The position numbers and the translations under genes were made by a program. A stretch of DNA of 64,000 nucleotides. Source: an uncultured Muribaculaceae bacterium (lineage in GTDB: Bacteria > Bacteroidota > Bacteroidia > Bacteroidales > Muribaculaceae). The notes beneath the pieces were generated by a model. That model was not told the DNA's origin. It did no database searches and was given only the letters and a program-made list of their open reading frames with translations. Where the stretch lies: the NCBI GenBank assembly GCA_947632485.1, contig CANRPJ010000003.1:99858-163857 (forward strand), read 5' to 3'. Within the stretch, counting starts at the first letter, position 1; the number at the start of each line of letters is the position of its first letter. Shown piece after piece: positions 15,082 through 20,851 of this stretch.

Positions 15082-17397
15082 TCAGTTCTTGACGGCTGAA
15101 TCATCGTAGACGGAGTTGTTGAGGCTCCTCTGGGTCTTGCGGAAGGAGCGGCCGAACTGCAGATTCCAGGTGAAACTTACATAAGATTCCCAGGCAGCGC
15201 CCTTCATCTGGAACACACTCCAGCCCGGGCGAAGCGGATTGTGATCCTTCGAAGGATAGTAGCAGCCCTTCTTTGTCATGAACACCGTGCCAGCAGCGAC
15301 TGAGAACTGCCCCCAATTGTAAGAGGCATGCAGGCCGCTTTGATTCTCGCCGGTATTTTCATCGTAGCCATATAGGCTTTTCTTAGGCACATAATAATAG
15401 CCTGAGAAATAGAATCCACCGAAATGCAATAGCCCACTCATGCCCCACACGAACTGATTGAGCCGGTTGCTATAGTCTCCATTGGATACGTAATAGCTTG
15501 AAAAATCGAGATATCCCTCTAAGTCAAGATGCCCGAACAGATTAGAATATTTTAATTTAACAATCGCCGAAGTAGCATCGTAATTCTTGAAATTAGCATA
15601 CGATTGCACATATCTTCCCCCTCCTGCCCAATAGAGATCCTGAATAATCGCATCCCACGTATGGTAATTCTGCACATAAGCATTGATATCTAACGCGCCC
15701 TTATGAGTCCAGAAAGATAAATAAGACCTTAAGGGGTGAGCCGCCTTCAAATCAGGATTACCGGTAGCCGTAATGAAGCTGTTCTGCTCAGTCTCCACCG
15801 TAGAGAGCATCGAAAGGGAAGGAAGCTGAGGAGAATAGTTGGCATAAATCTGAAACTGCATATCCGGCCTTACCCTCCAAGATACACTCAGATTCGTTCG
15901 CTCCTGCCAGTAGCTGCTGACCAGAGAATTCTCATCTAAATAGAGATATTGAGCACCTCCACCCCACTGCAGGAAAACCCTGCCTATGCTCGAAGAGACG
16001 TTGGCATAAAGATAGAGGTTATCGCGATCCATCGTGCTCTTCTGGGAGCCGAGATAGAGATTTCGCGAATGAGAGAAATAGTTGTTAATTCCTCCCGAAA
16101 GGTTTACTTTTCCTAACGGCTGAGTATAGAACACATCGCTGCGCACTCCATAGAAACTACCGTCGACTTTGGAAGGATAATTAATCGGCTCATTGTCCAT
16201 ACCATCACGCCATTGCCTGAAACTTCTGGAATAGTCTGAAGATGAATAAGATGTCACCACGTTAGCTTCCAGCGAATTGCCCCGCGACCACTCCTTGCGG
16301 GTGAAGAGATTGAGGCTCGGTTCAAGTCTTCGGCTGCGGGTATCCTGACGCTGAAAGAAGGGCTTTTCACCGTTGACCGACAACCACCCTGAAGGGGTGC
16401 GGTGGTCGGTAAAAAAATGAGCACTCAATGTAGATACGAATACGAATCCAGCATTATCATTATAAGTGTAACCGGCGCTCACATTATTGGTTATATAACG
16501 CATCATGGAGGGCGTTCCCTTCAGGCTCTCCGTGCGCTTCCAACTCCCATCGGGACTACGGTATTCAGTAAAGGAATTGGTCAGATTGTCGCGGTAATCG
16601 CGCCAGTCATTATTGTAACTAACCACGAACTGAGAGCGCTTGTAATTGTAGGTTCCGTTCAGATTCGTATTAAGAAATCCCGTCTTATAAGGGCTTGACC
16701 TAAAGAAAGTATATAGCGTGCCGCCATCAAGCCTCTCTTTCAAGACTATGTTGATAATGCCACCTGTGGAATCATCATAACGCGATGAAGGAGTGTTCAC
16801 ATATTCAATGGATGCGATTTTTTCAGGCGGAAGCCCTTGCACGAAATTCAGATCGCGGGGCACGCCATTTACCTTGAAAACGACACCCTTTCCCATACTG
16901 CTGATTGTACGCAACTGAGGATTGACCGACAATCCGGGCAGATTTTCAAAATTCAGAAGATCCAGCACTGATTGAGAAGCCCTCACATTCTTTTCCTCAG
17001 GGTGAATAATCATTTTATCAGCCTTGTAGTATTTACGTTCAGCGAGAACCACTACCTCGCCTAATTCATTGGTCAATGGTTGGAGTCGCGTCTGGCCGTC
17101 GCCGGGAGCAGGAAAGATACATTCAATTACTGAAATCTCAAAACCATCTGCCTCAAGCCTAAGCAAATATTTTCCTTGAGGAGCATTAAGCACCATTATA
17201 CCGTCATCGCCAGTTGAGGCTATATCCACAAGCGTGGAATCCGGCATTTCAAGTCTACCGTATACTCCCCCAATAGGCATCTGGTCTATCGCATTCACCA
17301 CCTGCAGCCTCCACTCGAATGCGCCTGCATTCAGGCAGCCTACAGCGCAGATAATCACGAAGAGGGCACTTTTAAGCTTATTTGTCGATTTAGCCAT
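15082..17397 (-). CDS. TonB-receptor-like outer-membrane beta-barrel protein
   Basis: 771 aa. A signal peptide (about residues 1-27, MAKSTNKLKSALFVIICAVG...) is followed by a CarboxypepD_reg-like beta-sandwich (about 28-110), a plug-like domain (about 110-215, with VFKVNGVPRDL and STGGIINIVLKE), and a long beta-barrel of the OMP_b-brl_3 type rich in Tyr/Trp/Ser. No SusC-style extended N-terminus and no adjacent SusD gene are seen, so a polysaccharide-utilisation role is unsupported; the ligand is unknown. It probably sits in the outer membrane. Its upstream region is nearly identical to that of the LRR/transglutaminase-like gene at 18555-20480, which suggests shared regulation. Confidence 0.85.
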   Translation of the reverse strand: MAKSTNKLKSALFVIICAVGCLNAGAFEWRLQVVNAIDQMPIGGVYGRLEMPDSTLVDIASTGDDGIMVLNAPQGKYLLRLEADGFEISVIECIFPAPGDGQTRLQPLTNELGEVVVLAERKYYKADKMIIHPEEKNVRASQSVLDLLNFENLPGLSVNPQLRTISSMGKGVVFKVNGVPRDLNFVQGLPPEKIASIEYVNTPSSRYDDSTGGIINIVLKERLDGGTLYTFFRSSPYKTGFLNTNLNGTYNYKRSQFVVSYNNDWRDYRDNLTNSFTEYRSPDGSWKRTESLKGTPSMMRYITNNVSAGYTYNDNAGFVFVSTLSAHFFTDHRTPSGWLSVNGEKPFFQRQDTRSRRLEPSLNLFTRKEWSRGNSLEANVVTSYSSSDYSRSFRQWRDGMDNEPINYPSKVDGSFYGVRSDVFYTQPLGKVNLSGGINNYFSHSRNLYLGSQKSTMDRDNLYLYANVSSSIGRVFLQWGGGAQYLYLDENSLVSSYWQERTNLSVSWRVRPDMQFQIYANYSPQLPSLSMLSTVETEQNSFITATGNPDLKAAHPLRSYLSFWTHKGALDINAYVQNYHTWDAIIQDLYWAGGGRYVQSYANFKNYDATSAIVKLKYSNLFGHLDLEGYLDFSSYYVSNGDYSNRLNQFVWGMSGLLHFGGFYFSGYYYVPKKSLYGYDENTGENQSGLHASYNWGQFSVAAGTVFMTKKGCYYPSKDHNPLRPGWSVFQMKGAAWESYVSFTWNLQFGRSFRKTQRSLNNSVYDDSAVKN

Positions 17398-17424
17398 AAT
17401 AGAGAATCTCTTTTAGGGTTCTAC

Positions 17425-17558
17425 TATAATGACGGCAAAAATACTGATTTGTGACAACCTACCCCCCCCACTTTTGCAAAAAAAACTTAAAATTTCGATG
17501 CGTCCTCTTTTTGGGGACGCTTTTTTGCGCTTTCTGTCCTAAAAATTAGGACACCTCG
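17425..17558 (-). repeat. upstream module, copy 1 (promoter, C tract, hairpins)
   Basis: This stretch is nearly identical to 20502-20633. On the plus strand it contains the -7 box, a run of eight C (17462-17469), hairpin GCGTCC...GGACGC (17500-17520) followed by six T, and hairpin GTCCTAA...TTAGGAC (17536-17552). In copy 2 the first hairpin keeps pairing through a compensatory C-G to T-A change. It abuts REP-like cluster A, so it may be the promoter-proximal part of a larger repeat. Function beyond promoting the barrel gene is inference. Confidence 0.8.
17436..17443 (-). promoter_or_regulatory. -7 promoter element of the barrel gene
   Basis: Minus-strand TATTTTTG matches TAnnTTTG and lies 38 nt upstream of the ATG at 17397. 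The place where a -33 TTTG would be expected is occupied by the homopolymeric C tract (G tract on the coding strand). Confidence 0.6.
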
Positions 17559-17869
17559 TTTCAGTCACCCTCTCCGAGGGTTCATGGTGGAGGGAGGGAT
17601 TCCTCTTCCCCCGGGTTCGCACCCGGGGCTAACGTCAGTCACCCGCGCTGCGGGTGAAATCACCTTCAGCTCCGATTCCGATTACGCTGCGGGTGATACC
17701 CGACCTTCCGTTCCGATTCCGCCTACGGAGAGGGTGTAGACTACTACAATCCAGCTGTAGAACTCATGCCTGAGATCAGCACCCGCGGAGAGGGTGCTTG
17801 AAGGTAACCCCGGGTGCGAACCCGGGAATCGACACCCACCCCTATCTCAGAACCCGCAGCGCGGGTGAT
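17559..17869. repeat. REP-like palindrome cluster A
   Basis: A non-coding stretch made of short GC-rich palindromes: TCAGTCACCCTCTCCGAGGG, then CCCGGGTTCGCACCCGGG, then TCAGTCACCCGCGCTGCGGG. After these come degenerate CACCC...GGGTG pairs and an inverted copy CCCGGGTGCGAACCCGGG near 17809-17826. The order matches clusters B and C. It sits directly 3' of the Y1 transposase gene, the arrangement expected of REP sequences served by a RAYT. No coding potential is seen here. Confidence 0.8.
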
Positions 17870-18313
17870 TCATAGCCAATCGTTTATGTGATAAGAAAGG
17901 TCATACTTTGATGCCATCTTCTCCATCTCCTCTTCTAAACTTATGCCGCTATGATGATTCTCCTGATTATTGATGTAGTCTTCACATTGCTTTTTATGAC
18001 CCGGACTTATGCTACCGGCATAATATCCGTCAGCCCAACCTTCAAAATAATTTAGGAATCGTTCTCTTTTTAATAAGGCCACTGATGACGTTTTCATTTC
18101 TCTAACCAACGAGGCCAATGCAACTGATGGATGCAAGTCCAGTAGAATATGGATATGATCTTTATAACCTCCAATAGCACAGACATGACTCATATTATTC
18201 TCTATCACTCCTGACAAATAAGCATATAATCGATCTCTGCCTTCCGGCAGAATAGTGCCTCTACGGTATTTCGTAGCAAATACTAAATGAATATAGATGG
18301 CAGTTTTACTCAT
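17870..18313 (-). CDS. IS200/RAYT-type Y1 transposase (REP-associated)
   Basis: A 147-aa HUH single-strand transposase starting MSKTAIYIHLVFATKYRR at 18313; the longer ORF-track start runs into a REP palindrome and is unlikely. Features are the N-terminal HLVFATKYRR strand, the HUH motif DHIHILL, and the catalytic tyrosine in YINNQENHH, followed by a helical tail. Length matches the TnpA_IS200 family. No TnpB or IS200 left/right ends with a partner ORF are visible. Instead REP-like palindromes flank both sides and recur elsewhere, which favours a domesticated RAYT over an active insertion sequence. It acts on single-stranded DNA hairpins by family knowledge. Confidence 0.85.
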   Translation of the reverse strand: MSKTAIYIHLVFATKYRRGTILPEGRDRLYAYLSGVIENNMSHVCAIGGYKDHIHILLDLHPSVALASLVREMKTSSVALLKRERFLNYFEGWADGYYAGSISPGHKKQCEDYINNQENHHSGISLEEEMEKMASKYDLSYHINDWL

Positions 18314-18333
18314 ATCTGTATTAATTAAGCTTT

Positions 18334-18475
18334 TTTCAGTCACCCTCTCCGAGGGTTCAGGGTGGTGGAGGGATTCCTCTCCCCCGGGTTCGCACCCGGG
18401 GTTAACGTCAGTCACCCGCGCTGCGGGTGATACCCGACCATCAGCTCCGATTCCGCCTGCGGAGCGGGTGAACTC
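18334..18475. repeat. REP-like palindrome cluster B
   Basis: It lies just upstream of the transposase start. It repeats the order of cluster A (TCAGTCACCCTCTCCGAGGG, then CCCGGGTTCGCACCCGGG, then TCAGTCACCCGCGCTGCGGG) and ends with a degenerate CCGCCTGCGGAGCGGGTGA. Unlike A and C it is not joined to the promoter/C-tract module. Both TCACCC-type palindromes share the same 5' flank TCAGTCACCC. Confidence 0.8.
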
Positions 18476-18554: not shown

Positions 18555-20480
18555 TCACTTCCCCTGAGGAGGAGCCCAGAAGCGTTCGGGATCGGAAGTG
18601 TAGATAAACCACTCCTCCCCCAAGCGGAAGCCTTCAGGCACGAGAGCCACGTAGCTACCGTTGCCCTGGGCCTCACGACCCTCTGGCTGACTGCAGTTTA
18701 CAACGCGTGCGGTGATGCAGTAGAGGTTCTTGGCCATATAGTTCTTCAGGTAGCCGTCGACCTCGGTCTTCTTCCTATGGTTCCAGTTGGCGTCTTCATT
18801 GAGCACCAGTGGAAGGTCGGCAATCAACCTCTCGCGCACCTCGCCGGGGTGGAGGGGCACGCCGTTTTCATCGGTCACGAATGAGGCGTGAGTCGGGTCG
18901 AGCCATACCCATTTGCTGAAATCCGAGCTCCATGCGGCTACAATCACGTGGCAGTCGCTGTCCCACATATAAGCCTCCGGCTCGCAGGTGAGATAGCGGG
19001 CGGGAATTCCTTCTGCCAGAAGAGCTTCGGTGAGCATTATGGCCAGAATCCGGCAGTTCACTCCGCGGTCTTCTTTCTGGCAGAGGTCGTAAATGTCACG
19101 TATATTATAAGCACAGGAGGGATTTAGGGAGCTACCATCGTGAGGAATGAGGTCGTGGATCCAATAATTGAGCCTCTTCATGCGCTCGAAATCGGAGCCT
19201 TCGCCGGCGATGCTGTCGAGGTTGAAACGCTCCCTCGAAAGAGCGAGCAGAGAATCGGAAGCGGGAGCGTAGCGGAAAACGGGAAGTGGCTCGCTCTGAG
19301 CTTTGTAAGGGGCTGATTTCTTAAGCACTTCCAGTTTCGGAGTGCCTTTGAAGAAATCATTATTGAGATAAGGGCGCGCCGCCTCGGCCACTGGCGCAGT
19401 ATCCACCCCGAGCGCAGCCACTTTTGAGGCGAGATCCTTATACTGCGCTAAAGCTACCTTTACCAGAAACTTCTGATCATTCTCGCCGGAAAGCCATCTC
19501 TTATAGGAATCAAAGATAGCTTCCGCTTCTGCCTTAACTTGTGGATTCTCTTCGTCAGCCTGAGGCACTTTTGCTTCCGGATTCGATATCATCGCGCCGT
19601 GACGAAGGGCATACCCTCTGAAATCCGGACTGCCGGTGGGCGCCTCAAGGCCAAAATCTGACACAAGCCCCTGGAATTCAACAGCCTCAAGCTTCGGACA
19701 ATTATTAAACATACCGGGTCCACCCATCGAGGCTACCGGCCCACGGAATTCTACTCTACGAAGTTCAGGGCAATCTCTGAACTGGTAGCCATCGATATGA
19801 CCTATCGAGCCAGTGAAAATCACTTCTTCAAGAGCAGGGAAGGAGTTAAAGCTACCAGACGGCACATAATCAGCAGTGCCGATAAAGATACTTTTCAACC
19901 GAGGGCACCCCTGGCCATCAGTCATGGCAAATTCTGGCAGACGCAGGCGCTCGAGCGATTCGCTCATACCGATAGCCATATTATGGACGTAAACACCTTC
20001 GGGAATCTCGATCTCACGAAGTCCGGTGCCCCATAGCGACCACATATTCACGGAATCAAGGCGCTCGGGAAGCATAAGACTATCGAGGGTGCACGCATAC
20101 AAGAATCCTATCGGAAGCGCATGGCGGCTGCGGATAGTCATAGTGGCATGGTTGGCAAGCGGCCTCGCAGAGGGATCCGGCGCAAACTCCGCTTTCCTCA
20201 GATCAAGCACTTTCACTACCGAAGGGTGCGGGACGAACACAGAATCACCACCGCACACGCTCCTCAACCACCTGACATCATCATTGTTGAGCGCTCCGGA
20301 AATCCGCAACACTCCCGCCGGGGAGTCGGTGCCGACCGTCTGGCGGAGCGTGCCAGGACGAGAGAGGGTTACGTCGTAGACTTTCAAATCATCGCCGGCA
20401 TAAGCCGCCAGGCATGAGACGGCGCACATAAGGTCGAAAAAGACCTTAATCGTTCTGGCAGAAAGAGCTGTCATTTTCAT
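18555..20480 (-). CDS. exported leucine-rich-repeat/transglutaminase-like protein
   Basis: 641 aa from the ATG at 20480 (MKMTALSARTIKVFF); the longer ORF-track start lies upstream of the promoter box and is excluded. A signal peptide (about 1-27) precedes a BspA/LRR_5-like region (about 130-290; e.g. FNNCPKLEAVEFQG). The C-terminal half has a transglutaminase-like core with Cys476 (GVNCRILA), His511 (DCHVIVAA) and Asp528 (WLDPTH), a complete papain-like triad. It is probably periplasmic or surface exposed, with peptidase or cross-linking activity; substrate unknown. It shares its 5' module with the barrel gene at 15082-17397, so the two may form a regulon. Confidence 0.8.
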   Translation of the reverse strand: MKMTALSARTIKVFFDLMCAVSCLAAYAGDDLKVYDVTLSRPGTLRQTVGTDSPAGVLRISGALNNDDVRWLRSVCGGDSVFVPHPSVVKVLDLRKAEFAPDPSARPLANHATMTIRSRHALPIGFLYACTLDSLMLPERLDSVNMWSLWGTGLREIEIPEGVYVHNMAIGMSESLERLRLPEFAMTDGQGCPRLKSIFIGTADYVPSGSFNSFPALEEVIFTGSIGHIDGYQFRDCPELRRVEFRGPVASMGGPGMFNNCPKLEAVEFQGLVSDFGLEAPTGSPDFRGYALRHGAMISNPEAKVPQADEENPQVKAEAEAIFDSYKRWLSGENDQKFLVKVALAQYKDLASKVAALGVDTAPVAEAARPYLNNDFFKGTPKLEVLKKSAPYKAQSEPLPVFRYAPASDSLLALSRERFNLDSIAGEGSDFERMKRLNYWIHDLIPHDGSSLNPSCAYNIRDIYDLCQKEDRGVNCRILAIMLTEALLAEGIPARYLTCEPEAYMWDSDCHVIVAAWSSDFSKWVWLDPTHASFVTDENGVPLHPGEVRERLIADLPLVLNEDANWNHRKKTEVDGYLKNYMAKNLYCITARVVNCSQPEGREAQGNGSYVALVPEGFRLGEEWFIYTSDPERFWAPPQGK

Positions 20481-20501
20481 GATAGTTTTAAGTTCTTCTG
20501 T

Positions 20502-20633
20502 TATAATGACGGCAAAAATACTGATTTGTGACAACCTACCCCCCTCACTTTTGCAAAAAACTAAAAAAATTTGATATGTCCTCTTTTTGGGGACACTTTT
20601 CGCACTTTCTGTCCTAAAAAATAGGACACCCCG
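20502..20633 (-). repeat. upstream module, copy 2
   Basis: A near-identical copy of 17425-17558. It has the same TATAATGACGGC start, a -7 box at the same offset, a shorter C tract (six C, then TC, versus eight C in copy 1), and hairpins TGTCC...GGACA (20577-20595) and GTCCTA...TAGGAC (20611-20627). The substitutions preserve pairing in the first hairpin. It joins REP-like cluster C directly. Confidence 0.8.
20513..20520 (-). promoter_or_regulatory. -7 promoter element of the LRR/transglutaminase gene
   Basis: Minus-strand TATTTTTG, 32 nt upstream of the chosen ATG at 20480 and at the same place in the module as the copy-1 box. It makes the ORF-track start at 20534 implausible because that codon lies upstream of the promoter. 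Confidence 0.6.
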
Positions 20634-20851
20634 TTTCAGTCACCCTCTCCGAGGGTTCATGGTGGTGGAGCGCTTCCTCTACCCCCGGGTTCACACCCGG
20701 GGTTAACATCAGTCACCCGCGCTGCGGGTGATATCGCCTCAGCTCAGATTCCGCCCGCGGAGCGGGTGATATAGCCTTCTGCTCAGATTTCGGCAGCGCT
20801 GCGGGTGATTCCCGACCTTCTGATTCAGCCCGCGCTACGGGAGAGGGGAGA
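20634..20851. repeat. REP-like palindrome cluster C
   Basis: Third copy of the array: TCAGTCACCCTCTCCGAGGG, CCCGGGTTCACACCCGGG (one change from A and B), TCAGTCACCCGCGCTGCGGG. Further degenerate units follow (CCGCCCGCGGAGCGGGTGAT, CAGCGCTGCGGGTGATTCCC) up to the stop codon of the nucleotidyltransferase-like gene. Non-coding. Confidence 0.78.

Follow-up and report, generated by a model that had tools for sequence, protein, structure and literature searches.

A probable REPtron-like locus in a branch of Y1 transposases without a known REPtron

The most familiar example of a bacterial transposase that its host retains along with a population of tiny palindromes is the REP/RAYT system. To our knowledge, work on such pairs has dealt almost exclusively with class 2 enzymes. 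Insertion sequences of the IS608 type have ends with hairpins on one strand. In the classification of Quentin et al. 2018 (PMC6006769), the Y1 transposases are split into subclass 1.1 (IS200), subclass 1.2, class 2 (the RAYTs, with a Y...NP motif) and class 3; subclass 1.2, characterized by Y---Q--HH and a length of about 148 aa, is tabulated there without REPs. Measurements exist for TnpAREP, which cuts REP in single-stranded form next to the hairpin with a guide-like tag (PMC8266576). Two further descriptions are relevant: i) the TIRtrons, in which genes of tyrosine transposases (TIRYTs) lie between inverted repeats, with Acidobacteria among the hosts named in the part of the account considered here (Di Nocera et al. 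2013, PMC3733652), and ii) Acido-Lenti-1 (RF01687), a candidate RNA of Acidobacteria and Lentisphaerae (Weinberg et al. 2010, PMC2864571), calls of which are taken as regulatory RNAs by annotators, e.g. beside Tannerella protease genes (PMC13298647).

The locus described here resembles the REPtrons and REPINs of REP/RAYT systems (class 2, Proteobacteria) in having a Y1 HUH enzyme without TnpB, inverted palindrome arrays that flank the gene, are dispersed intergenically and are gene-specific, tags 5' of the stems, and inverted dimers. It differs from them in the protein, which is of another branch (Y---Q--HH, IS200 side), and in the repeat, which is a three-hairpin unit of ~95 nt without GT[AG]G instead of a single REP hairpin of 20-40 nt. 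With subclass 1.2 (PMC6006769) it shares Y---Q--HH, a length of 147-153 aa, a C-terminal extension, low copy number and occurrence in Bacteroidota, but REPs are recorded there as absent, whereas conserved units flank the genes here. Unlike IS200/IS605 elements (IS608, ISDra2), it has inverted units and single-copy genes, and neither tnpB nor single-strand left and right ends of the IS type. As in TIRtrons, inverted repeats flank a tyrosine transposase gene and some form dispersed families; compared by description only, the bracketing units here are internally folded, whereas in the considered part of that account (PMC3733652) many TIRs are mutually unrelated and no conserved three-hairpin fold is described. 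We conclude that this is probably a REPtron-like locus, belonging to a transposase branch for which the open-access literature has no known REPtron.

The transposase and its bracketing units

The window, i.e. the whole analysed stretch of 64 kb, contains the following features, where R1 is a covariance model built from the window's own genome only and z refers to folding as single-stranded DNA:

17870..18313, minus strand: gene of a subclass 1.2 TnpAY1 (Y1 HUH transposase), 147 aa, intact
18335..18432, plus strand: unit upstream of tnpA; R1 98 bits, fold z -4.3; H1 at 18342-18356, H2 at 18382-18401, linker TTAACGTCAG at 18402-18411, H3 at 18412-18430
17777..17873, minus strand: inverted unit abutting the tnpA stop codon; R1 90 bits, fold z -2.4
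17560..17659, plus strand: third unit, downstream of tnpA; R1 96 bits, fold z -3.8
20635..20733, plus strand: fourth unit, between two other genes; R1 95 bits, fold z -4.8
17660..17740, plus strand: extra partial repeats of the GCTCCGATTCCG...CGGAGC type (repeat families D2 and D3), trailing a unit
18433-18475 and 20734-20850: further partial repeats of the same type (families D2 and D3)
17419..17558, minus strand: promoter-like tract that lies between the neighbouring gene and the units and is repeated at 20496-20633 (88%)

A first, sequence-only reading of this DNA had proposed a Y1 HUH transposase without an IS200 partner gene, and this is borne out: the protein matches PF01797 (E 9e-22) and NF033573, and no tnpB-like gene adjoining tnpA was seen in the ORF and Pfam results. 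The HUH fold and its motifs are intact, with every conserved residue in place, including histidines 53 and 55 of the HUH motif DHIH and tyrosine 113, Q117 and H120-H121 of YINNQENHH; the latter is the Y---Q--HH signature, which is also present in all four paralogues of the same genome. The AlphaFold model (AF2, pLDDT 87.7) best matches the TnpA proteins of IS608 and ISDra2 (E about 1e-8), and the E. coli RAYT 4ER8 is a weaker structural match (E 7e-6); IS200/IS605 TnpA (IS608, ISDra2) are the closest solved structures and also the closest sequences. A tree against RAYTs and IS200 TnpA, as the first reading had suggested, places 75 subclass 1.2 rows on one side of a branch with SH-aLRT 99, beside IS200 TnpA and far from four RAYTs, the E. 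coli one among them (a quick method with few columns, and nine IS200 proteins and these four RAYTs as reference set). Because the subclass 1.2 clade is apart from the RAYTs, the window protein is not a RAYT by descent, and its assignment to the RAYT groups had to be abandoned. Class 2 (RAYT/TnpAREP) is rejected on the same separation and on the tyrosine motif, which is YINNQENHH and not Y...NP, whereas the features of subclass 1.2 are all found: Y---Q--HH, HUH motif DH[IV]H, about 148 aa, and a single clade of close kin of IS200 TnpA. Among 101 genomes of the genus only one close orthologue was found (43% identity) and no empty site, and the matches in plasmid and phage collections are nearly all of IS200 type.

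The three palindromes that had been read as separate REPs are parts of one unit of ~95-97 nt that consists of H1, a spacer, H2, a linker and H3; their presence on both sides of the gene and at 20.6 kb was confirmed. Four copies occur in the window, the fourth being 2.2 kb away from the upstream one. Direct and inverted repeats are found on both flanks of tnpA and again at 20634-20733, and the inverted repeats I1-I3 back the inverted unit at 17777-17873. The bracketing of the gene was thus rightly recognized, but the orientation of this copy had been missed: since it is inverted, and H1 is the hairpin closest to tnpA in the 18335 unit, the gene stands between two facing units in the layout H3-H2-H1-tnpA-H1-H2-H3.

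All four units fold better than shuffled sequences as single-stranded DNA, and the window has 6 occurrences of CAGTCACCC, compared with an expectation of 0.37. The spacer between H1 and H2 has about 26 nt, the H2 stem has 8 bp with a TCGC loop in most units, and the usual form of the linker, counting the last two stem bases, is GGTTA[AC]CNTCAG. The suggestion of a short tag 5' of the stems is upheld: 19 of 23 units have TCAG directly before H3, and most have TGAG or TCAG before H1. No GT[AG]G tag was found at the hairpin foot, and bases other than TCAG take the tag position across phyla. The three-hairpin fold is backed by compensatory base changes: in 12 units of the own genome, both partners are changed in 7 of 22 pairs (34 such cells), the covariation score is 0.346 compared with 0.126 for shuffled alignments, and compensated changes occur in all three stems. 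A search of the window region against Rfam gave no match.

Dispersal in the genome and across lineages

R1 identifies 26 units on at least 16 contigs of the 2.6-Mb genome; BLAST alone detects about eight outside the locus. Those outside the window are all intergenic, overlapping only short ORFs or mechanically extended 5' ends of long ORFs. The REP/RAYT layout proposed in the sequence-only reading therefore stands as a REPtron-like one, with palindromes that flank the gene and are also dispersed between genes, as for RAYTs, and not confined to its vicinity. The genome-wide count envisaged there holds for the unit but not for the exact tag TCAGTCACCC, which has 8 sites, 6 of them in the window (control 2), because tag and stems differ between subtypes. 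The window type (TCAGTCACCC) is confined to this locus, and the copies dispersed in the genome belong to a sister subtype (CACCCACGCTGTGGGT...) with different H1 and H3; the tie of these copies to the window protein therefore runs via the common H2, linker and tag.

Most units of this genome are single, but inverted pairs occur at contigs C25 and C1 (gaps of 39-43 nt), and another genome of the genus (G060) has three with gaps of 22-24 nt. Such close, dispersed inverted pairs (gaps of 22-43 nt overall) correspond to REPINs or BIMEs; tail-to-tail pairs are also seen elsewhere. Of 18 unit pairs with any flank homology, 2 are homologous beyond the unit on either side, whereas in 16 the homology ends at the unit; such breaks could also arise when repeats undergo ordinary recombination or gene conversion. 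Units of the window type are found clustered with those of the C6 type in common intergenic regions (C35, C11, C12, C4, C19 and C2), which looks as though units land within or next to existing ones.

The five tnpA genes of the genome are single-copy except for a pair on contig C6, and the paralogues are 31-42% identical to the window protein; the window gene itself has no closer paralogue than 42%, so that the several identical IS200-type copies envisaged as a counter-indication are not found for it. The C6 family has 14 repeat copies, 10 of them away from the tnpA genes, the family of the C14 paralogue has repeats at its own gene only, and a tnpA family in genome G116 also has dispersed repeats (20 copies). 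The two C6 tnpA copies lie 3.3 kb apart, embedded in diverged repeat arrays, and have in common a perfectly identical tract:

C6:103139-103674 and C6:106455-106990: identical 536-bp tnpA tracts, bounded by inverted 31-bp H1 copies

One H1 (AAACAGAGCTGCGGAGCTGCGATGTTGTGAC) and its inverted partner delimit each tract, which ends at their outer edges; immediately past these edges the spacers differ, and the H2-linker-H3 parts are similar, not identical. This fits recent copying of a moved H1-tnpA-H1 segment, with gene conversion as an alternative source of the identity.

The sequence-only reading had envisaged a Bacteroidales version; related units, however, flank relatives of the gene in other phyla, and subclass 1.2 relatives occur well beyond Cyanobacteria and Bacteroidetes. 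We took 80 relatives from named genomes, most of them metagenome-assembled, so that taxon names are approximate; isolates among them are Pontiella sulfatireligans, Labilibaculum euxinus and Carboxylicivirga. A model-free test could be applied to 76 loci, own paralogues among them: common sequence was found left and right of the gene in 58 of these, and on both sides in 0 of 55 far controls. With E down to 1.5e-6, R1 matches lie beside genes of subclass 1.2 in Kiritimatiellota, Verrucomicrobiota, Calditrichota, Bacteroidota and other groups. The model R2, built in one iteration from R1 matches and applied at E up to 5e-5, is partly circular through training on some of the tested loci, from which R1 and the non-training loci are free. 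It finds units at 53 of 92 loci, with 139 units no farther than 600 nt from tnpA (1.34/kb) and 11 beyond that distance (0.027/kb) in a zone with four times as much DNA, i.e. a 50-fold higher density near the gene.

In most loci the units start 0-60 nt from the gene. The nearest upstream unit is inverted in a ratio of 37:5 and the nearest downstream unit forward in a ratio of 43:2 (R2), so that 80 of 87 cases have the orientation of an inverted bracket; among the 69 loci outside the R2 training, units are present in 30, with orientation 44:3. The layout in these lineages is therefore H3-H2-H1-[tnpA]-H1-H2-H3, as in the window. In an alignment of 150 units, both partners vary in 21 of 22 pairs, and covariation is 0.533 compared with 0.155 for shuffled and at most 0.106 for slid alignments, a value that leans toward structure because the alignment was fitted to it. 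The consensus is roughly TTC-AACCCC-TTC-GGGGTT ... CCNNGGGT-TNC-ACCCNNGG-CTATTCATGTT-AACCCC-TTC-GGGGTT.

Since units flank subclass 1.2 genes in many bacteria, a branch thought to be REP-less appears to own repeats, and the absence of REPs reported in 2018, a trait that does not define the subclass, is not upheld by the common flanks and modelled units. A branch of subclass 1.2 with proteins of about 153 aa (MANTYTQ start) is mostly without units. In locus L193, a gene of this branch lies between two repeated segments resembling hsdS 3' ends, with hsdM nearby, and in L188 and L184 such genes lie between paralogous small membrane-protein genes (MLRFFRQIRQKL...).

Among 148 Bacteroidota genomes, the subclass 1.2 gene is present in 67 and units (E up to 0.001) in 35; the gene occurs in 26 of the 35 unit-bearing genomes and in 41 of the 113 others (Fisher p 9e-5, relatedness ignored). 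The remaining 9 unit-bearing genomes are without a detected gene, several of them in genus g35, where G110, G140, G156, G183 and G229 all have units and no detected subclass 1.2 gene; they resemble REP populations that have outlived their RAYT. A single linker pattern, GGCTATTCANGTT, was also tried as a general marker in the 148 genomes and rejected, being enriched in few only, such as G116 (17, control 3).

Origin of the units and their likely relation to Acido-Lenti-1

In the consensus of Acido-Lenti-1, a CUAauuUAUgcC linker joins a hairpin of 8 bp to a short one with a triloop, an arrangement that corresponds to H2-linker-H3; the family is described as a 46-nt candidate sRNA with neither H1 nor a transposase link. 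RF01687 scores above the Rfam gathering threshold inside a unit in locus L026 and above threshold twice in L047, by its array at 0.6-0.8 kb from the subclass 1.2 gene; in the window region it has no match at E 0.1. Given the correspondence with H2-linker-H3, the Acido-Lenti-1 family is likely to be DNA of the three-hairpin-unit kind, in which case its calls in annotation would be read differently. We lean slightly toward the full proposition that subclass 1.2 TnpA and its units form a separate REP/RAYT-like lineage of IS200-side origin in many phyla and that Acido-Lenti-1 is its H2-H3 half.

By analogy with TnpAREP, the subclass 1.2 enzyme probably works on the folded unit and spreads it. TnpAY1 would bind its cognate unit when single-stranded, e.g. 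on the lagging-strand template, and read the hairpins plus the adjoining short tags and linker; its tyrosine would cut and rejoin beside the hairpins, and units would be copied or moved, singly or as inverted pairs, into intergenic spaces, the gene occasionally moving together with its bracketing hairpins. The scheme is putative throughout, from the action of the window protein on these units and its cleavage sites to the lagging-strand setting and the direction of copying.

An ordinary insertion sequence of IS200/IS605 type with elaborate ends, the dispersed units being non-autonomous derivatives and solo ends, could explain why the window protein is nearer to IS200 TnpA than to RAYTs and why an H1-bounded tnpA segment was recently copied in C6. 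We regard this as unlikely, since the units face each other inverted, unlike the one-strand hairpins of IS608-type ends, and outnumber the genes 26 to 1, and since the genes are diverged single copies without tnpB; instead of several near-identical full copies with IS ends, there is one identical pair, that of C6. A reading of the units as RNA elements or transcription terminators, beside which the transposase merely inserts, is rather improbable: the match of H2-linker-H3 to a candidate sRNA in Rfam, the intergenic positions and a T-run after H3 in some units speak for it, but the bracket is symmetric, inverted and abuts the gene, mostly at 0-60 nt, the unit sequence is particular to each gene, units occur on both strands relative to it, and a terminator scan of the window units showed no excess over shuffles.

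That local duplication and gene conversion account for the common flanks, with no functional link between gene and repeat, seems very improbable. Some dispersed units do have long common flanks, and the copy at 20.6 kb, which takes in the promoter tract next to it, is thus a local duplication, but many lineages have the same inverted arrangement at diverged genes, with stem sequences that are unrelated. The preferred reading of a REPtron-like locus would provide a second, independent pairing of an enzyme with a conserved, recognisable DNA unit, and so a comparative test of co-evolution, and would account for one class of palindromes, GC-rich and intergenic, that was observed here in Bacteroidota and the PVC group.

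Neighbouring genes and the promoter-like tract

The promoter-like tract, possibly of ECF sigma type, is probably a feature separate from the units. The gene at 15082-17397 encodes an outer-membrane receptor-like protein without a Pfam match, and that at 18555-20534 a BspA-type LRR plus transglutaminase-like protein. The tract (TGTCACAAATC...CGTCAT) is also found at C35:4.7k, C4:108.8k, C25:36.8k and C6:96.3k, and such tracts lie upstream of genes whose products appear to be secreted or to belong to the outer membrane, often immediately next to a unit.
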